The translations under genes were made by a program, and so were the position numbers. From assembly GCA_011051715.1 (NCBI GenBank), contig DRKP01000044.1, positions 1 through 44,255 of the forward strand: a DNA stretch of 44,255 nt, given 5' to 3'. The notes beneath the pieces are model-generated. The model was not told where the DNA came from. It made no database searches and worked only from the letters and a program-made list of their open reading frames with translations. Positions 3,777 through 20,336 of this stretch are shown here, piece after piece. Within the stretch, counting starts at the first letter, position 1. Each line of letters begins with the position of its first letter. Source of the DNA: Sedimenticola thiotaurini. Lineage in GTDB: Bacteria; Pseudomonadota; Gammaproteobacteria; Chromatiales; Chromatiaceae.

Positions 3777-3859
3777 TCCCGGCCGACGCCGGTCGGGGGT
3801 GGCGCATGCCGCTCCGGCCGGGGGGAAAGATTTTCTGTTCCGGGACGCTAACCTGGAAG

Positions 3860-5530
3860 ATGAACGGCAATATCGCAGACAAGCGGATATCCGACCGGGG
3901 CCGGCCCGACCCGTCGCCGGGGCCGGCTCCTGCCGACACAGGGGAATTTCCCGCGGCCCCGGAGGGGGGATCGTCTCCGCTGGAGACTTCCCATGGCGGC
4001 ACCGTCGAGTTCCTGTTGCGGCGCATGCAGCACCAGAGTGATCTGCCGGTGCTGGCGGAATCGATCCGCACGCTCAACCAGGTGGCCGACGCCGGGGACC
4101 AGGATCTGGGCCGCCTGGCCGGCGTCCTGGTTCGCGATTTCGCCCTCACCAGCAAGATCCTGAAGGTGGTCAACTCGGCCTTCTACAGCCGCTTCTCGGG
4201 TCATATCGGCAGTGTCAGTCGCGCCATCGTGGTGCTGGGCATCAACACGGTACGCTCCATCGCCACCTCGCTGATCCTGTTCGAGCACCTGCACGACCGG
4301 GCCAGGGCGGAGCGGCTCAAGGACGAGATCGCCGGCGCCGTGTTCGCCGCCACCCTGGCGCGGCAGGTGGCCGCTGAGGCGGGACTCGACGACGGTGAGG
4401 GGGCGTTTCTCTGCGGCATGCTGCACAATCTGGGGCGGCTGCTGGTCACCTACTATCTGCCGGAGGAGACCGCCGAGATCGAGCGGCTGACGGGGCAGGA
4501 ACAGATGGCCGCGCCGGTGGCGGAACAGCGGGTGCTCGGCCTGACCCTGGAGCAGGTGGGGATCGAGGTGGCGCGGGCGTGGAACTTTCCCGCCGACGTC
4601 ACCATGGGTATGGTCCGTGCCGATCCCGATGCACCGGGGGACCTGACCAATCCCTACCTGAAGATCCGCCTGATTGCCGGTTTCGCCAACGAGGCGGCGT
4701 CCCTGATCGGCGAATCAGGGGAGGGGGACGCAGGGGCCAGACGGCGGCTGCTGAAGCGTTACCGCATGGGCCTGGCGATCAGCGACAAGTCCTTCGAGCG
4801 CGTTCTCGGCGCGGCGCGTCGCGAGTTCATGGAATTGAGCAGTGATCTGGTCCGGCACCGGTCCCCGAGCCCCTTTCTCGGCAATCTTCTGCACCAGGAG
4901 CCGGAGACCGGTGACGCCCCTGCCGATCCGGAGATGGAGGCGGGCCGCGTCCTGGAGACGGCCGCCGACGGCGGGCTGCAGCCCGCTGACCTGGCCATGG
5001 CCCGGCCCTCCCCGGACGCGGAGCGGATCCTGACCGAGGGGCTGCAGGAGCTCTCCTCCATGCTGGCGGAGGGGGCCGGCAATGTCAGTCAGGTCCTCAA
5101 TGTCACCCTGGAGACCATCTATCGGGCGATGGGGTTTCAGAGGGTGCTGGTCTGCCTGCGGGACCGGAGTGGACGGGAGTATGTGGCGCGCCTGGGTTTC
5201 GGCCGCGAGATCGATGCCTACCTGGAACGCTTCCGTTTCCCTGCCGCCTACAGTGCCGATGTGTTCCATGTCGTCCTGAAGAACGGTGTCGATCTCCATA
5301 TCACCGATACCGGTGCCGCCAATATCCGCGACCGGCTGCCCGACTGGTACCGGCGTCTGCCGGCGGCGGGCTCCTTCCTGCTGTTCCCCCTGCAGGTGCG
5401 GCAGCGCCCCCTGGGGCTGATCTACGCCGACCACCCGCGACCCGACGGTCTCTCCCTGAGCGAGGAGCAGCTCAACCTGCTGAAGGCCCTGCGCAACCAG
5501 GTGCTGCTGGGATTTCGCGCCCGCGGCTGA
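3860..5530 (+). CDS. HDOD-GAF domain regulator
   Basis: A 556-residue cytoplasmic protein. Residues about 1-45 are a proline- and glycine-rich, probably disordered leader. An HDOD domain follows (about 48-260), with the ILKVVNSAFYS stretch and a degenerate HD motif (MLHNLGRL), so it is probably a non-catalytic relative of HD phosphohydrolases. Residues about 385-550 resemble a GAF domain (LNVTLETIYRAMGFQRVLVC through LGLIYADHP). HDOD proteins generally act in signalling; the ligand and partner cannot be read here. It is divergent from nifJ, so the two share a 163-base control region. The start is uncertain: ATG 3860 is chosen because the sequence before it looks non-coding, but ATG 3806 has a G-rich stretch in ribosome-binding position. 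Confidence 0.85.
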   Translation: MNGNIADKRISDRGRPDPSPGPAPADTGEFPAAPEGGSSPLETSHGGTVEFLLRRMQHQSDLPVLAESIRTLNQVADAGDQDLGRLAGVLVRDFALTSKILKVVNSAFYSRFSGHIGSVSRAIVVLGINTVRSIATSLILFEHLHDRARAERLKDEIAGAVFAATLARQVAAEAGLDDGEGAFLCGMLHNLGRLLVTYYLPEETAEIERLTGQEQMAAPVAEQRVLGLTLEQVGIEVARAWNFPADVTMGMVRADPDAPGDLTNPYLKIRLIAGFANEAASLIGESGEGDAGARRRLLKRYRMGLAISDKSFERVLGAARREFMELSSDLVRHRSPSPFLGNLLHQEPETGDAPADPEMEAGRVLETAADGGLQPADLAMARPSPDAERILTEGLQELSSMLAEGAGNVSQVLNVTLETIYRAMGFQRVLVCLRDRSGREYVARLGFGREIDAYLERFRFPAAYSADVFHVVLKNGVDLHITDTGAANIRDRLPDWYRRLPAAGSFLLFPLQVRQRPLGLIYADHPRPDGLSLSEEQLNLLKALRNQVLLGFRARG

Positions 5531-12804: not shown

Positions 12805-14520
12805 TCAGCCGGACTGCTCCTCCGCCTTGTATCCCATGCGGAAGCCGCCCCAGTGGCGGCCGCCGACGTGGATCGGCACCGAGATGTCGTGCATCACCTC
12901 ACCGGTGTCGCGCTTGTAGGTCTGCAGCAGGAACGGCTGGGTGTGGGAGCCGCAACGGCGGCCGGTGGGGTCGTCGAAGATGCGCTTGGTACGGTTGTTG
13001 ACCAGGTCGGTCTGGTAGTCACCCGTGAGCGGCCGGGAGAAGCGCCGGTTGTGGGTGGGGAAGTAGCCGTTGTCGTCCACCGCTCCGGCATAGGCGATCT
13101 CCGGATGCTGTTCCAGGATCCTCTCCTGGATCGGCGGCAGTACCTGGTCGGTGAAGTCGTCGAAACGGGTCTTGTACTTCTGTGGATCGGTATCCGGGAT
13201 CGGCTGGTAGTCGCGGTCGAACAGGTCGTCGCTGCCGAGCCGGCCACTGGCCACCGCCTGTTCGAACACCCGGCCGACCTCGGCCGCGGCGTCGGCCGCG
13301 ATCTGCCGCATCCGGCAGTGCAGGGAGTCGTGGTTGAAGTCCATCAGCAGAACATGGATCTGCTCCGCCATCGTCGACAGGCGGGATGCCTGCTCGGCCA
13401 CCCCCTGGATCTCGACCTCGGTTTCGCTCAGGTGGCTGCTCACCGACTGGATGGCGGTGGAGATCCGCGCCACCTCGGCGGCGTTCTGCTCGGTCCCCCC
13501 GGCGATGCCCTCCACCTGCTGCTGCATGTTCTCCGAGTGGCGGTGGATCAGGGCCAGCTGTTCGCCCACCGCCTCGGTACGCCCGGTGCCGTCGACGATG
13601 GCCTCGACCAGACCCGACATGGTGCCAACCGCCTGCTCGATGTCGGTGCCGATCTGATCCACCATCTGGCCGATCTCACCGGTTGCCTCCGCCGTCTTCC
13701 GGGCCAGGTTGCGCACCTCGTCCGCCACCACGGCGAATCCCCGTCCCTGCTCGCCCGCCCGGGCCGCCTCGATGGCGGCGTTCAGGGCCAGCAGGTTGGT
13801 CTGCTCCGCGATACCGCTGATGACCGAGGTGATCTGCTGGATCTGCCCCGACTTGCCTTCCAGGCTGGCGATGATGGCGGAGGTCTCCTCCGCCCTGCGG
13901 GTGGTCTGACGCATCTGCTCCACCGCCCCCCGCACCTTCTGTTCCCCCTCGCTGCTCGCCTCCCGGGTCTGGCGGGCGAAATCGGCGGCGTTGCTGGCGC
14001 TGGCCGCGGCCTGTTCAACGATCTCGGAGATGCGGCTGGCGGAATCGGCGATGGCGCGGATGTCGGCCACCTCCCGGTGCACGCTGTCGGAGAGGCCGTC
14101 GGCGGCGAAGGAGACCTCGGCCGCGGCGATGGCGATGCGGCTGCCGTTCTCCACCAGGCTGCCGGTCATCTCGTGAAAGCGCTCCAGCCCGTCGCTGATC
14201 TCGCCGTGGCGCTGCCCGATCCGCCGGTGCCGCCGCAGATCCTGGTCATCGAATCCGTGTCCGTTCGCCGCCACGGCCCCCCCCTCTCCCTGCAGTCGGC
14301 GGGTGATATGGTCCAGCGATCCCTGCAACGGCGCCACGATCCAGTACCAGGAGACAACAGCGGTGCCGGTCACCGCCAGCAGCGCCGAGGCCAGCAGGGT
14401 CACCAGGATCCCCGCGGCCGGTGTCAATAACCAGTGCAGCGTGATGGCACCGCCCAGGGCGATGGCGCCGGCGATCAGGGTGGGAATGACGAAAACCTTT
14501 TTACCTTGGTCGATGAGCAT
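12805..14520 (-). CDS. Methyl-accepting chemotaxis protein with C-terminal extra domain
   Basis: A 571-residue chemoreceptor. Two membrane helices (about residues 8-30 and 35-65) are joined by almost no periplasmic loop, so sensing is not periplasmic. The signalling hairpin carries the canonical [20 protein letters not shown] tip and [12 protein letters not shown]. After the coiled coil, residues about 395-571 form an extra domain with conserved-looking blocks ([54 protein letters not shown]), possibly PAS/Cache-like. I recognise the pattern from other receptors but not the ligand. There is no CheR-binding pentapeptide. A candidate sigma-28 promoter lies upstream. It is divergent from the CYTH-CHAD gene. 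Confidence 0.93.
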
Positions 14521-14610: not shown

Positions 14611-14798
14611 GCGGCAGAGCCCGCCGTCACCGGTCCGGATGCGGCTCCCGCGCCCCGTTCCGCGGTGACGGCACGTGGCGAGCGGTCGCCCCGGGCGATC
14701 CGCCGGGGGCACCGGTTTCCTCCCGGGGAGAGGGTGCTTTAGTATCGTGGATCCCCTATCATCGTCCCATGCCCAGGACCGACCGAGAGCGCCGCCCC

Positions 14799-16382
14799 AT
14801 GTCCAGCCAGCCCCTCTGTTTCCGCATCCCGGATTCGCAGCCGCAGGAGCAGATTCTCACCGCCCTGCGTGGTGCGTTCAATCTGCAGGAGGAGGAGGAG
14901 CGTACCCTGGCCCAGACCTACTACGACAGCTTCGACTGGCGTCTCTATGGAGGCGGATCGGTGCTTCGCTGTGAGCGCGAAGGTCGCGAGCGGCGACTGG
15001 TCTGGAGTGATCCCGGGGAACTGCACAGCCGCGAGACGCAGCGCCTGGCCGGTGATCCGCCCCGCTTCGGCCAGGATCTGCCACCCGGGCTGATGCGGGA
15101 GGGCCTGACGCCCCTGCTCGAGATGCGCGCCCTGCTGCCCCAGGTCGAGGTGAAGAGCCGTCTGCTGCCGCTGCGGGTGACGAACCGGGACGACAAGACG
15201 GTACTGCGGCTGACCCTGGAGTGGCACCGCAGCCGCGAGCCGGGGCGGGCCGAGTATCACGACCTGGATGGCCGCCTCTGCCTGCGGCCGGTACGGGGCT
15301 ACGTCAAGACCCTGCAGCGGATGCAGGCGTTCCTGGGGGAGGAGCTGGGACTGCCCCGGGCCGAGTCCGGCCTGCTGCAGCCGGCCCTGGCCGCCATCGG
15401 CCGCCGGCCCGCCGACTACACCTCCCGGCTGGACTTCCACTTCCTGCCCGAGACCCCGGCCGGGGTGGTCGCGCGGGAGATCCACCTGCACCTGCTGGAC
15501 ACCATCGAGCGCAACCTGCCCGGTACCCGGGCCGACCTGGACTCGGAGTTCCTGCACGACCTGCGGGTGGCGGTGCGGCGCACCCGCTCGGCCCTGACCC
15601 AGATCAAGGGGGTGTTTCCGCCGGCGGCGGTGGAGTCGTTCGGCAGCCGCTTCGCCTGGGTCGGCCAGATCACCGGCCCGACCAGGGACCTGGACGTCTA
15701 CCTGCTCGATTACGAGCGCTACCGCGACAGCCTGCCGGAGCCGTTCCGTGCCGACCTGGATCCGCTGCGTGACTTTCTCGTCGTCCATCAGAGACAGGCC
15801 CACCAGGAGATGGTGAAACGGCTCAACTCCCCCCATTTCCGTGGCCTGCTGAAGGAGTGGCGCGCCTTCCTGGAGCAGCCGCCGGAGGCGGACGGGGAGG
15901 CACCCAATGCCCTGCGCCCGGTGAAGGAGGTGGCGGACCGGCGCATCCGCCGCATCTACCGGCGGGTGCTGCAGGAGGGTAGTGCCATCGGTGACCATTC
16001 GCCGCCGGAGGCCCTGCACGACCTGCGCAAGTCGTGCAAGAAGCTGCGCTACCTGATGGAGTTCTTCCAGAGCCTCTACCCGAAGAAGAGGATCCGGCCC
16101 CTGATCAAGGCGCTGAAGGGCCTGCTGGACAACCTGGGCGGCTTCCAGGACCTGGAGGTGCAGGCGATGAAGCTGCGCGAGTTCGCCCACCAGATGGTGG
16201 CGGAGGACGCCGCGCCGGCGGACACCCTGCTGGCCATGGGGATGCTGGTGGACGGCCTGCTGCGGCGCCAGCAGGAGGCACGCAGGCGCTTCGCCAGCGA
16301 ATTCGAACAGTTTGCCGACCCGGCCCGCCAGCGGGTGTTCCGGGAGCTGTTTCCCGGCAAGGGGCGGAGGGCCGGCGGATGA
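14799..16382 (+). CDS. CYTH-CHAD domain protein
   Basis: A 527-residue soluble protein. Residues about 1-200 look like a CYTH (triphosphate tunnel) domain, but the N-terminal ExExK catalytic motif is not visible (SSQPLCFRIPDSQ stands there), so triphosphatase activity is doubtful. Residues about 225-510 form a CHAD domain, two helical repeats with His and Arg/Lys-rich motifs (FLHDLRVAVRRTRSAL and ALHDLRKSCKKLRYLM). CHAD domains bind polyphosphate and target polyphosphate granules in the cases studied. The start chosen is ATG 14799, with GAGAG about 13 bases before it; ATG 14769 is an alternative without a ribosome-binding site. The stop overlaps the start of the ParA-like gene (ATGA), implying translational coupling. 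Confidence 0.9.
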   Translation: MSSQPLCFRIPDSQPQEQILTALRGAFNLQEEEERTLAQTYYDSFDWRLYGGGSVLRCEREGRERRLVWSDPGELHSRETQRLAGDPPRFGQDLPPGLMREGLTPLLEMRALLPQVEVKSRLLPLRVTNRDDKTVLRLTLEWHRSREPGRAEYHDLDGRLCLRPVRGYVKTLQRMQAFLGEELGLPRAESGLLQPALAAIGRRPADYTSRLDFHFLPETPAGVVAREIHLHLLDTIERNLPGTRADLDSEFLHDLRVAVRRTRSALTQIKGVFPPAAVESFGSRFAWVGQITGPTRDLDVYLLDYERYRDSLPEPFRADLDPLRDFLVVHQRQAHQEMVKRLNSPHFRGLLKEWRAFLEQPPEADGEAPNALRPVKEVADRRIRRIYRRVLQEGSAIGDHSPPEALHDLRKSCKKLRYLMEFFQSLYPKKRIRPLIKALKGLLDNLGGFQDLEVQAMKLREFAHQMVAEDAAPADTLLAMGMLVDGLLRRQQEARRRFASEFEQFADPARQRVFRELFPGKGRRAGG

Positions 16383-17125
16383 GGATCTTCGGCGTCTACA
16401 ACATCAAGGGCGGGGTGGGCAAGACCGCCACCGCCGTCAACCTGGCGCACCTGTCGGCGCTGGAGGGGCATCGCACCCTGGTCTGGGACCTGGATCCCCA
16501 GGCCGCCGCCACCTACTACTTCCGCATCAAGCCGCGGATCAAGGGCGGCGGGCGCAAGATGATCCGGGGCCGGAAGGAGCTGGACCGGCTGATCAAGGGC
16601 ACCGACTTCGACAACCTCGACCTGCTGCCGGCGGACTTCTCCTACCGCAACATGGACCTGATGCTGGGCGAGGCGAAGAAGCCGGTGAAGCAGCTGCTGC
16701 GGCTGCTGCGGCCGCTGGCGGAGGAGTTCGACCATGTGTTCCTGGACTGCCCGCCGAGCATCTCGCTGGTGTCGGAGAACATCTTCCGCGCCGCCGATGC
16801 CCTGCTGATCCCCTCCATACCGACCACCCTCTCCATGCGCACCTACCAGCAGCTGCTGGACTTTCTCGAGGGACACAAGCTGGAGAGCGTCCGCCTGATG
16901 CCCTTCTTCTCCATGGTGGACCGGCGCAAGCGCATGCACCTGGAGATCATGGAACGGATGCCGGCGCTCTACCCCGAGGCCCTGGAGACGGCGATTCCCT
17001 ATGCCAGCGACGTGGAGCGCATGGGCCTGCACCGGGCGCCCCTGGCCAGCTATGCCCCGCGCAGCCCGGCGGCACTCGCCTATCAGGGGTTGTGGGACGA
17101 GGTGAAGGAGCGGCTGGCACGCTGA
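16379..17125 (+). CDS. Orphan ParA/MinD-type ATPase coupled to CYTH-CHAD gene
   Basis: A 248-residue ATPase with the deviant Walker A box KGGVGKT (10-16), a Walker A'-like VWDLDPQ (35-41) and Walker B FLDCPPS (121-127). Residues 49-73 form a strongly basic stretch with 11 Arg/Lys in 25 positions, in a region that varies between ParA proteins. Family members form ATP-dependent dimers on the nucleoid and move or space a cargo. No ParB or parS site lies nearby, so chromosome segregation is unlikely. The start overlaps the CYTH-CHAD stop by four bases (ATGA), with GGAGG about 8-12 bases upstream. It is not MinD or FlhG by context. Cargo is inferred: polyphosphate granules through the CHAD partner. 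Confidence 0.88.
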   Translation: MRIFGVYNIKGGVGKTATAVNLAHLSALEGHRTLVWDLDPQAAATYYFRIKPRIKGGGRKMIRGRKELDRLIKGTDFDNLDLLPADFSYRNMDLMLGEAKKPVKQLLRLLRPLAEEFDHVFLDCPPSISLVSENIFRAADALLIPSIPTTLSMRTYQQLLDFLEGHKLESVRLMPFFSMVDRRKRMHLEIMERMPALYPEALETAIPYASDVERMGLHRAPLASYAPRSPAALAYQGLWDEVKERLAR

Positions 17126-17162: not shown

Positions 17163-20100
17163 TCAGCTGCCCGGCACGGCGGAACGGGATGCCCGGTCGT
17201 CCCCGGCGGCGGCCACCACCTCCGCCGCCCGGGGATCGCCCCGGGTCAGCAGCCGGTACACCACCGGTACCAGCAGCAGGCTCACCAGGGTGGAGAACAG
17301 CAGGCCGGAGACGATGGTCACCGCCAGCGGCTGCAGCATCTCGGAACCCTCGCCCAGGGCCAGCGCCAGCGGCAGCATCCCCACCACGGTGGTGAGGGTG
17401 GTCATCAGGATCGGCCGGATGCGCAGGCGGGCGGCGGCGACGATGGCCCGCTCCAGCGGCCGGCCGCGCTGGCGCTCGATCTCGATGTATTCCACCAGCA
17501 CGATGGCGTTGTTGACCACGATTCCGGCCAGCATGATCATCCCCAGCCAGACCGGCATGGAGAGGGGCAGTCCGGTCAGCTGCAGACCGATGGCGACGCC
17601 GATGGCGGCGAACGGCACGGAGAGGATGATCACCAGCGGATTGCGCAGCGACTCGTACTGCACCGCCATCACCACGAACACCAGGAACAGGGCCAGCGCC
17701 AGCAGCTGGTAGCTCAGGTCGCGGCCGGCCTGCAGGGTCTCCAGGTTGCCGGCGTCGTAGAGGCTGTAGCCGCGTGGCAGCTCCAGCCCCTGCAGGCGGC
17801 TGTCGGCCGCCTGCAGCACCTCGCCCAGGGTCCGTTCGCCGGTGAGGGTGGCGCCGATCTCGACGAAACGCTGCTGGCGATCGCGCTGGATGGTGGCGGG
17901 CACCGAGCGGATCTCGACCCGGGCCAGGTCGGACAGACGGACCGCACGGGGCGGACTGGTGTTGCTGAACAGGATGATATTCTCCACGTCCCGTGGCGAG
18001 CGCAATTGGGCCGGGTCCAGCCGCAGCCGTACATCGATGGAGCGGTCCCCGTCGATGAAACGGGTGACGCTGCGCCCCTGCAGCGCCAGGCGCACCGCCC
18101 GCCCCACCTGCTCCACCGTCAGCCCGTAGCCGGCCGCCCGCTCCCGGTCGACCTGGATCGACAGCTCCTGCCCCCTGTTCTCGGCCGAATGCTGCAGGTT
18201 GGTGATGCCGGGCAATCCCCGCAGCCGCTCCACCACCCGGTCGGCGATCCGTTCCAGCACCGCCAGGTCAGGGCCCTTCACCCGCAGGGCGAAATCGTCG
18301 TCGCTGCGGTTGAAGCGGATGCCGCGCACGCCGACGCTGTACATGCGGATGCGGGCGCCGGCGATGCGCGCCCGGCCGATCTCCCGTTTCACCCGCGCGA
18401 TCCAGCTGCGGCTGTCCAGGTTGCCCCGTTGTGCCTTCGGTTTCAGCTGCACCTTGATGCTGGCGCGGTTGGGCGCCTCGTGCTGGGAGCGGCCGAAGAT
18501 GTGGCCGCCGACGGTGGTGAACAGGGTCTCCACCTCGGGCTGCCGAGCCAGGATCTCCTCCACCCGCCGGGTCAGCCGGTCCATGGCGGGGACGTTGATC
18601 CCCTGGTCGGCGGTGATGCTCACGTAGATGGTCCCCTCGTCCAGGTTGGGCAGGAAGATCTGGCGGCTGTCGAGAAAACGGGGCGCGGTCCAGGCGAGCC
18701 CGGCGAGGAACAGCAGCGGTACCAGCCAGCGCAGCCGCAGCAGGCCGTTGAGGAGCCAGCCGTAGCCCCGCTGCAGTCCGGCCATGGCGCCGTCGACCAG
18801 GCGCCGCAGCAGGCCCGGCCGGCCAACCGGGATCCGGCCGGCCAGGGCCGGCACCAGGGTCAGGGCCACCAGCATGGCGGCGACGATGGCGGCGGAGATG
18901 GTGAAGATCAGCTCCCGGAACAGCAGCCCGACCAGGCCGCTGACGAACAGGAACGGCAGCACCGCCGCCAGGTTGGTGGAGGTGGAGGCGACGATGGCGC
19001 TGTTCACCTCGGCGGCGGCCCGCAGCGGTGCCTGCTGCGGCGATTCACCCATGCGCTGGTGGCGGTAGATGTTCTCCAGCATGACGATGGTGCTGTCCAC
19101 CAGCATGCCGATACCCAGGGCCAGACCGCCCAGGGTCATGATATTGAGGCTGAGCCCGGCGATGTCCATCAGGATGAAGGTGACCAGGATGGCGATGGGG
19201 ATGGCGCTGCCGATCACCAGGGTACGGCGCAGGCTGCCGAGGAACAGGTAGACCACCAGCATCGCCAGCAGGCCGCCGCTGGCGGCGGCGTCGATGGCGT
19301 TGTTCAGGGACTGGCGCACATAGCGTGCCTGATCGTCCACCAGCCGGATGCGGATGTCATCCGGGATCAGTCCCTGCCGCTTAAGTTCCGCCAGCCGGGC
19401 GTCGACCCGGTCCACCACCTGGACGGTATTGGCCTGGGGCTGCTTCTGGATCGACAGCTTGACTCCGGGCAGACCATCGAGGCGCACGCTCAGCCGCTCC
19501 TCCTCGGCGCCGTCGATCACCCGTGCCACCTCGCCCAGCCGCAGTGGCGGCCGGCCGGCCTGCTCCTGCGCGGCCGGCAGCGGCAGCTCCATGATCTCGC
19601 GCACGCTGCGGAAGCGCCCGGCGGTCCGGCCGCTGATCTCGCCCCGGCGCATCAGCAGCCGGCCGGCCGGGGTATCCCTGTTGCCCGCCTCCAGGGCTTC
19701 GGCCAGGTCGAGGATGTCCAGCCCCAGGCCGGCCAGCCGCTCCTGGTCGGCCAGCACCTGGATCTCCCGCACCAGGCCGCCGCCCACCTCGGCGGCGGCG
19801 ACTCCGGGGAGATTGAGCAGCCACTTGCCCAGGTTGTAGTCGACCCAGCTGCGCAGCTCCACCGGGTTGCGCAGGGGCGAGCTGATCACGTATTCGGCCA
19901 CCGGCCGCTGGGAGGGGTCGCGCTTGTAGATGATGGGCGGTTCGATGCTCTCCGGCAGGAAGCGCTTGGCCCGGTCGAGCCTGGTGCTGGCGTCGCGCAG
20001 GGCCTGGTCGATGTCCTTGCCGTATTCGAACGAGAGGGAGACACCGCTGCGTCCCTCGCTGGTCTGGGACTCGACGTGGATGGCGTCCTCGGTGATCGCC

Positions 20101-20336
20101 AGCTGCTCCTCCAGCTGCCGGGTCACCTCGTCCTCCATGATGGTGGCCGGCACTCCCGGATCCAGTACCCGCACCCGGATGTCCGGGTAGATGATGTGGG
20201 GCAGCAGGTCGATGTTCAGCCGCTGCAGCGAGAACACCCCCAGCACCATCACCGCCAGGGTGATCATCACCACCCCCACCGGGTGGCGCACCGACCAGGC
20301 CGCCAGGCCGCCGCCGATGCTGTGTCCCGCCTTCAT
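17163..20336 (-). CDS. RND efflux permease (HAE-like)
   Basis: A 1057-residue inner-membrane proton-driven transporter of the AcrB/HAE superfamily, normal in length. The first membrane helix follows WSVRHPVGVVMITLAV. Two large periplasmic loops flank the central helices. The TM4 motif reads GMLVDSTIVMLENIYRH, with Asp414 kept but the next residue Ser where AcrB has a second Asp. The C-terminal half repeats the fold (MVLAGIVVNNAIVLVEYIE-like segment). The substrate is not predictable. The adaptor gene lies upstream on the same strand, separated by an unusual 177-base gap with its own palindrome and -10 element. No outer-membrane TolC-type channel gene is present. Confidence 0.94.
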   Translation of the reverse strand: MKAGHSIGGGLAAWSVRHPVGVVMITLAVMVLGVFSLQRLNIDLLPHIIYPDIRVRVLDPGVPATIMEDEVTRQLEEQLAITEDAIHVESQTSEGRSGVSLSFEYGKDIDQALRDASTRLDRAKRFLPESIEPPIIYKRDPSQRPVAEYVISSPLRNPVELRSWVDYNLGKWLLNLPGVAAAEVGGGLVREIQVLADQERLAGLGLDILDLAEALEAGNRDTPAGRLLMRRGEISGRTAGRFRSVREIMELPLPAAQEQAGRPPLRLGEVARVIDGAEEERLSVRLDGLPGVKLSIQKQPQANTVQVVDRVDARLAELKRQGLIPDDIRIRLVDDQARYVRQSLNNAIDAAASGGLLAMLVVYLFLGSLRRTLVIGSAIPIAILVTFILMDIAGLSLNIMTLGGLALGIGMLVDSTIVMLENIYRHQRMGESPQQAPLRAAAEVNSAIVASTSTNLAAVLPFLFVSGLVGLLFRELIFTISAAIVAAMLVALTLVPALAGRIPVGRPGLLRRLVDGAMAGLQRGYGWLLNGLLRLRWLVPLLFLAGLAWTAPRFLDSRQIFLPNLDEGTIYVSITADQGINVPAMDRLTRRVEEILARQPEVETLFTTVGGHIFGRSQHEAPNRASIKVQLKPKAQRGNLDSRSWIARVKREIGRARIAGARIRMYSVGVRGIRFNRSDDDFALRVKGPDLAVLERIADRVVERLRGLPGITNLQHSAENRGQELSIQVDRERAAGYGLTVEQVGRAVRLALQGRSVTRFIDGDRSIDVRLRLDPAQLRSPRDVENIILFSNTSPPRAVRLSDLARVEIRSVPATIQRDRQQRFVEIGATLTGERTLGEVLQAADSRLQGLELPRGYSLYDAGNLETLQAGRDLSYQLLALALFLVFVVMAVQYESLRNPLVIILSVPFAAIGVAIGLQLTGLPLSMPVWLGMIMLAGIVVNNAIVLVEYIEIERQRGRPLERAIVAAARLRIRPILMTTLTTVVGMLPLALALGEGSEMLQPLAVTIVSGLLFSTLVSLLLVPVVYRLLTRGDPRAAEVVAAAGDDRASRSAVPGS

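Follow-up and report, generated by a model that had tools for sequence, protein, structure and literature searches.

The window analysed here is the whole of a 44,255-nucleotide stretch of Sedimenticola thiotaurini DNA (contig DRKP01000044.1, assembly GCA_011051715.1). On its plus strand, a gene for a CHAD-domain protein (14799–16382, 527 amino acids) runs directly into a gene for a ParA-type ATPase (16379–17125, 248 amino acids). We propose that the two may well form a module for the positioning and inheritance of polyphosphate (polyP) granules, a reading of the sequence that we stop short of calling probable. A predicted polyP role is strongly supported for the CHAD-linked form of the ATPase, and ATP-driven granule positioning would be the likeliest single mechanism, at somewhat less than an even chance. 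Beyond the window, we tentatively suggest a dedicated ATP-driven system for positioning and partitioning polyP granules that would be widespread among Gammaproteobacteria and extend to part of the remaining Pseudomonadota. The CHAD-gene stop and the ATPase start share the four bases ATGA (16379–16382, plus strand), as the initial annotation had noted, and this overlap likely couples the two genes translationally.

The ATPase matches Pfam AAA_31 (E 1e-32). Its AlphaFold model (predicted local distance difference test, pLDDT, 90) has the ParA/Soj fold, with template modelling (TM) scores of 0.88–0.90 to Soj and ParA structures and 0.81–0.82 to McdA. The deviant Walker A motif KGGVGKT (residues 10–16; 16406–16426, plus strand) conforms to the pattern KGGxxK[T/S], and K10, G11, G12, G14, K15 and T16 are invariant over the 41 family members aligned. 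Residues 49–73 (16523–16597, plus strand) make up a basic segment, for which the count of 11 arginines and lysines in the initial annotation is correct. The 41 members have 5–11 such residues here (median 9), and the segment is a candidate surface for contact with DNA or polyP. Among the ParA matches listed from 55 related genomes (E ≤1e-10), 18 subfamily members share 53–100% identity with the window ATPase and all others 37% or less. Because of this gap, the window ATPase is, as judged by identity, a member of a sharply bounded and distinct ParA subfamily; identity to it within the aligned subfamily set is 51–77%.

The source genome (G000) contains three further ParA matches. One adjoins a parB-like gene on a different contig from the CHAD-parA pair, and another lies in a chemotaxis/flagellar-motor cluster that includes cheB and a pair of motor genes of the flagellum. 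For the third, neither of the two neighbours tested received an NCBIfam name. Such separate ParAs are consistent with the picture of one ParA-type ATPase per cargo described for H. neapolitanus, in a paper whose main text contains neither the word polyphosphate nor the word CHAD (PMC10241942).

The pair is conserved well beyond the window. We surveyed 369 genomes of the class Gammaproteobacteria and, separately, 299 genomes of the phylum. The class survey yielded 58 subfamily ParAs, spread over 57 genomes and 39 families, and CHAD in 126 genomes. Of these 58 ParAs, 43 (42 genomes, 28 families) have a CHAD gene immediately upstream in the same orientation. In the 55 relatives, 17 of 18 subfamily ParAs had a same-strand CHAD gene no more than 5 kb away, versus 0 of 89 other ParA paralogs. 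A further set of named loci comprised the best 80 of 570 confirmed matches and is hence biased towards close ones. CHAD lay at most 300 bp upstream in 55 of them, with an overlap of −4 in 27 and −1 in 11; these counts are lower bounds, the CHAD profile built here having missed two adjacent CHADs that Pfam detects (L080, L084). Since 43 of 58 class members are adjacent and the exact −4 and −1 overlaps recur, the adjacency of CHAD and subfamily parA is not a matter of chance. Across the 42 named loci longer than 12 kb, CHAD was present in 29, whereas of the other genes near the pair in the window PepN was present in 9, RND in 2 (one at 26% identity), MFP in 1 and MCP in none, so neighbours shuffle while the pair persists. 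The adjacency also extends to some Alphaproteobacteria. With these and 28 class families represented, it is not confined to close relatives, the concern raised in the initial annotation.

The CHAD protein was delineated from its open reading frame, Pfam and its model (pLDDT 94.6), and combines a degenerate CYTH/TTM-fold N-terminus with a long CHAD domain. Pfam CHAD (PF05235) was matched at residues 231–459 (E 3e-64). Residues 207–522 (15417–16364, plus strand) superpose on the CHAD protein of Chlorobium tepidum (CtCHAD; 6QV7, Z 36.5) and on its polyP complex (6QVA, Z 35.2). The mutated residues at the centre of that complex are His253, Arg256, Arg260, Arg296 and Arg418/Tyr419 (PMC6537752). They correspond to H253, R256, R260, R296, R417 and Y418 in the window protein. 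Over 65 aligned family members of the CHAD partner protein, H253, R256 and R296 are kept in all 65, and R260, R417 and Y418 in 64 each. The N-terminal part (residues 1–206; 14799–15416, plus strand) is less constant. Five of the 43 linked loci have CHAD open frames of just 313–344 amino acids, which leaves no room for a CYTH domain; one more short frame (G332, 258 amino acids) lies at a contig edge and was set aside. Because of these five frames, CHAD rather than CYTH is the constant part of the linked loci.

Within the class, genomes with the subfamily ParA more often carry CHAD and PPK1. CHAD was present in 51 of 57 genomes with the ParA versus 75 of 312 without it (Fisher p 3e-21); for PPK1 the corresponding counts were 52 of 57 and 173 of 312 (Fisher p 9e-8), both p values being uncorrected for kinship. 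PPK1 lay within 5 kb of ParA for seven of the 58 class members (6 families), where the expectation from a single ppk per 3.5 Mb is about 0.17. Four of the 80 named loci have the order ppk1-CHAD-parA on one strand (L119, L125, L154 and L174), and PPK2 directly follows ParA in a CHAD-parA-PPK2 arrangement in G041. Elsewhere ppk1 is followed at 7 bp by a divergent subfamily parA with no CHAD beside it (G192; L058:4671-7689). The source genome has three PPK2 matches, of which one exceeds the curated TIGR03707 cut-off. PPK2 occurs in 14 of 14 ParA-bearing genomes of the window's own family, but it does not discriminate, since 33 of all 34 family genomes carry it.

The computed support for granule positioning consists of the two folds, the conserved nucleotide-binding and polyP-contact residues, the conserved overlapping gene pair and, within the class, its proximity to polyP genes. 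Contact between CHAD and the ATPase, DNA binding, gradient formation and granule movement are all four steps that we infer. CHAD would bind polyP and coat or mark the granule, as expected by homology and as published work has shown for other CHADs. The ATP-bound dimer of the ATPase would bind the nucleoid, from which a CHAD-coated granule may locally release it, or at which it may stimulate it. Granules would then chase ATPase gradients, becoming spaced over the nucleoid so that both daughters are supplied, as carboxysomes are with McdAB. The activator may be the folded CHAD surface, or polyP itself, in place of a basic disordered N-terminus. In a bolder variant, polyP would compete with DNA for the basic segment and so strip the ATPase from the nucleoid; such competition would explain a CHAD partner that has no conserved basic activating tail.

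Several observations weigh against this proposal, and standalone ParAs and the missing basic disordered N-terminus are its main difficulties. Known ParA partners have been shown or suggested to act through such an N-terminus (PMC10241942). With starts set by alignment to the window protein, the first 15 or so residues of the CHAD partners have a net charge of zero or below in 55 of 65, so a conserved basic N-terminus is missing; their C-terminal tails have a median of 8 amino acids and carry a net positive charge in 35 of 65. The peripheral polyP-contact positions are also less conserved than the central ones. At those aligned with the CtCHAD front patch R438/K441 (shifted by one), lysine or arginine occurs in 49 of 65 at 437 and 63 of 65 at 440. 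For the back patch R385/K386/K389/K390 (likewise shifted), the counts are 55 at 385, 50 at 388 and 53 at 389, while position 384 is basic in 5 or a few more of the 65 and tryptophan in 36. In the ATPase, R183 aligns with an arginine of 8RAY that we take to be a Soj DNA contact, but a second, presumably DNA-binding Soj arginine is an acidic position in the alignment. DNA binding by the modelled ATPase is for this reason plausible but not assured.

The association with ppk that the initial annotation had in view holds inside the class, where ppk lies beside the pair above chance. Only 16 of 54 ParA-bearing genomes outside the class have PPK1, and in no case is it less than 5 kb from ParA; over the phylum survey, with the source genome excluded, the count is 22 of 60. 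PPK1 is present in only 6 of 14 ParA-bearing genomes of the window's own family, and it was not found in the source genome at E ≤1e-5.

Adjacency, too, has its limits: it spans 28 families but is absent in 15 of 58 class members, mostly at 45% identity or less, and in 51 of 54 ParA-bearing genomes outside the class. Of the 25 named loci without an adjacent CHAD, 21 are from Methylococcales at about 60% identity and four lie at contig ends (two of these also Methylococcales). ParA was found in 61 of the 299 phylum-survey genomes, with CHAD adjacent in five (G000, G355, G499, G523 and G538), three of which lie outside the class (G499, G523 and G538). With the source genome excluded, CHAD was present anywhere in 50 of 60 of these genomes, a co-presence for which we claim no enrichment. 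Three genomes outside the class have divergent CHAD matches in frames of 531–560 amino acids some 8–10 kb from ParA (G461:C39, G435:C12 and G563:C161), that of G563 being below the Pfam cut-off.

On a tree of 158 family rows and 8 outgroup rows, made by a quick method and with several long branches, the label "adjacent" requires 11 changes, and a single standalone group of 16 rows takes in most of the members sampled from beyond the class. Together with the limited adjacency, this grouping shows that the CHAD-linked form is only a part, although one large part, of the ParA subfamily. The standalone members may have another function, or their CHAD may be encoded elsewhere in the genome. No common upstream partner emerged among ten proteins chosen from ParA loci without CHAD: these were an HDOD-GGDEF protein, an RTX/cadherin-like protein, an MFS protein, two RmuC proteins, an inositol monophosphatase, a PmbA/TldD protein, a PIN protein and two unmatched proteins. 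At one such locus (L135:3701-5632), a gene for an HDOD-response regulator-GGDEF protein precedes a standalone Methylobacter subfamily ParA; the window has an HDOD-GAF gene as well (3806–5530).

Among the alternatives, the one that survives best leaves the granules unmoved. The ATPase would be an ATP/ADP-dependent regulator of CHAD or PPK that switches polyP synthesis, breakdown or granule nucleation. Genes for PPK1, PPK2, CYTH or NUDIX proteins are directly joined to the pair at some loci, and BcsQ, a ParA-fold protein that acts in biosynthetic complexes, has structures among the fold matches of the ATPase. However, the neighbouring enzyme genes differ from locus to locus, CHAD being the most frequent neighbour, and the fold is nearer to Soj/ParA than to BcsQ. 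We regard a regulatory role as unlikely.

It is less likely still that the ATPase serves as a tether, linking CHAD-coated granules to the nucleoid without ATP-driven gradients, as is thought for AlgP or PhaM. The basic segment is conserved across the 41 ATPase members, which suits a tether, and the polyP spacing factor in a recent review is AlgP, a DNA-binding protein whose ATP dependence is marked there as unknown (PMC13052382). A passive tether would not need nucleotide-binding motifs, yet these are invariant over the same members.

A third possibility is that parA is a bystander and that the CYTH part acts as a polyP-regulated adenylate cyclase of class IV, or that CHAD confers copper resistance. 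The CYTH label of the initial annotation holds at the level of fold: residues 1–207 match TTM/CYTH structures, TTM enzymes included, at Z of about 15 and have the TTM fold. It does not hold by profile, as neither Pfam nor NCBIfam reported a CYTH domain in the protein at E ≤1e-3. In CYTH/TTM enzymes, the metal-binding motif ExExK lies in strand 1. It occurs in that strand in 0 of the 65 aligned partners, a set in which the Acidithiobacillus protein was not examined; one has E.E in the strand-1 columns, with the lysine missing. Strings resembling ExExK/R occur elsewhere in the first 60 residues of three of the 65, the window protein included, all outside strand 1. The five short CHAD frames likewise argue against a conserved cyclase. 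In favour of signalling, the CYTH active-site residues at the Acidithiobacillus locus are called well conserved in one paper (PMC6416229). For copper, another describes a copper-sensitive E. coli ygiF mutant complemented by A. ferrooxidans CHAD (PMC10892726). We set cyclase function aside since ExExK is missing from strand 1, and copper resistance since we found no independent evidence for it in this analysis; either is very unlikely to account for the pair.

The weakest alternative, a plasmid or integrated DNA partition cassette that acquired a CHAD gene, draws on Paracoccus plasmid copies with a small RHH-like gene upstream, and we consider it highly improbable and set it aside because the genome has a separate parA-parB pair, no parB-like gene lies beside the pair in the window, and no RHH protein was found outside Paracoccus among the loci searched. 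Subfamily ParAs were present in 11 plasmid records, with CHAD directly upstream in six, all from Paracoccus and two of them from one strain. A CYTH gene lies 3' of CHAD-parA in all six, and a NUDIX gene is annotated in four. In P. aestuarii the separately encoded CYTH protein retains EIERK intact, in contrast to the CYTH-like domain of the CHAD fusions. Five of the six records have a small frame annotated upstream, two of them with a translation (L204:6299-6487 and L203:6288-6476). The translated protein has 62 amino acids and a basic N-terminus, and matches Pfam RHH_1 (E 0.0035–0.0066) and ParG (E 0.014–0.047), all below the cut-off. ParG and other RHH proteins serve as partners of ParA, and the Paracoccus protein is possibly a ParG-like partner or a repressor. 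A phmmer search with it against 22,489 short frames (35–200 amino acids) of the loci returned only the two Paracoccus copies. As the protein is in no other locus searched, a hidden small third gene of the module was set aside.

Some plasmid genes are irregular. In P. liaowanqingii plasmid unnamed1, parA is annotated as two overlapping pieces and is probably broken (L209:2801-3567), and in plasmid pKGP1 it is annotated as an unusually long frame. On Thiodictyon syntrophicum plasmid pTs417, a CHAD gene (L206:5986-7572) and a pst operon for phosphate uptake lie about 3 kb apart; ParA is not among the genes listed in a gene table that is incomplete.

In the window, the pair has on one side a divergent chemoreceptor gene (12805–14520, minus strand), with the aminopeptidase N gene (PepN) past it, and on the other a convergent RND pump gene (17163–20336, minus strand). 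These genes adjoin the pair in place of a ParB partner, whose absence the initial annotation had pointed out. Because it sits between a divergent and a convergent gene, the pair probably forms a two-gene operon. An in-frame ATG lies ten codons 5' of the CHAD start (14769–14798) and would give a short arginine-rich N-terminal addition. CHAD starts of relatives were chosen by alignment to the start at 14799, so the alignment does not choose between the two ATGs. A promoter and terminator scan was uninformative (no promoter-like sites; two terminator-like sites versus 0.7 in shuffled sequence), and a repeat search found nothing notable.

The arrangement has been seen before. A folD-ppk-parA-CHAD locus of Acidithiobacillus is in print, interpreted as copper (PMC10892726) or cyclic AMP (cAMP) biology (PMC6416229), and the available parts of these two papers propose no positioning role for ParA. 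We found no proposal that ParA and CHAD position polyP granules in the titles and abstract openings of the papers listed by searches of the open-licence literature, a body that excludes preprints and most subscription journals. A 2025 review treats polyP granule positioning as unresolved, lists AlgP as the polyP factor and states that energy spending on granule localisation remains to be seen (PMC13052382). The conserved CHAD-ParA pair offers two named genes for deletion in cultured organisms. If granule positioning is its function, an inorganic polymer condensate would be a new class of ParA-family cargo. The pair also speaks for re-testing the published view that CYTH-CHAD proteins at loci of this kind are class IV cyclases.

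Compared with known systems, the pair resembles McdAB in being a two-gene module of a ParA-type ATPase and a protein expected on the cargo. The window ATPase is encoded with a putative cargo adaptor, as are 43 of the 58 class members; outside the class this applies to 3 of 54 ParA-bearing genomes. Unlike in McdAB, the adaptor here would be a folded polyP-binding CHAD protein rather than McdB, the conserved basic N-terminus is missing, and the ATPase is nearer to Soj than to McdA. With ParABS and Soj-Spo0J the ATPase shares its fold and motifs (TM about 0.89), but it belongs to a distinct subfamily and no ParB-type gene lies beside parA. AlgP of Pseudomonas aeruginosa has the same presumed cargo, polyP granules, but is described in two sources as a histone H1-like DNA-binding protein and not an ATPase (PMC9239181, PMC13052382). 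The Acidithiobacillus locus has the same gene pair beside ppk (PMC10892726, PMC6416229), and PepN and an RND transporter appear in its figure legend, as in the window; unlike the pair described here, it was published for a single genus, with cAMP signalling or copper resistance as the interpretation. Finally, the window CHAD protein shares the CHAD fold and the central polyP-contact residues with the CHAD "phosins" (PptA, ygiF and CtCHAD), and differs from them in being encoded together with a ParA-type ATPase.

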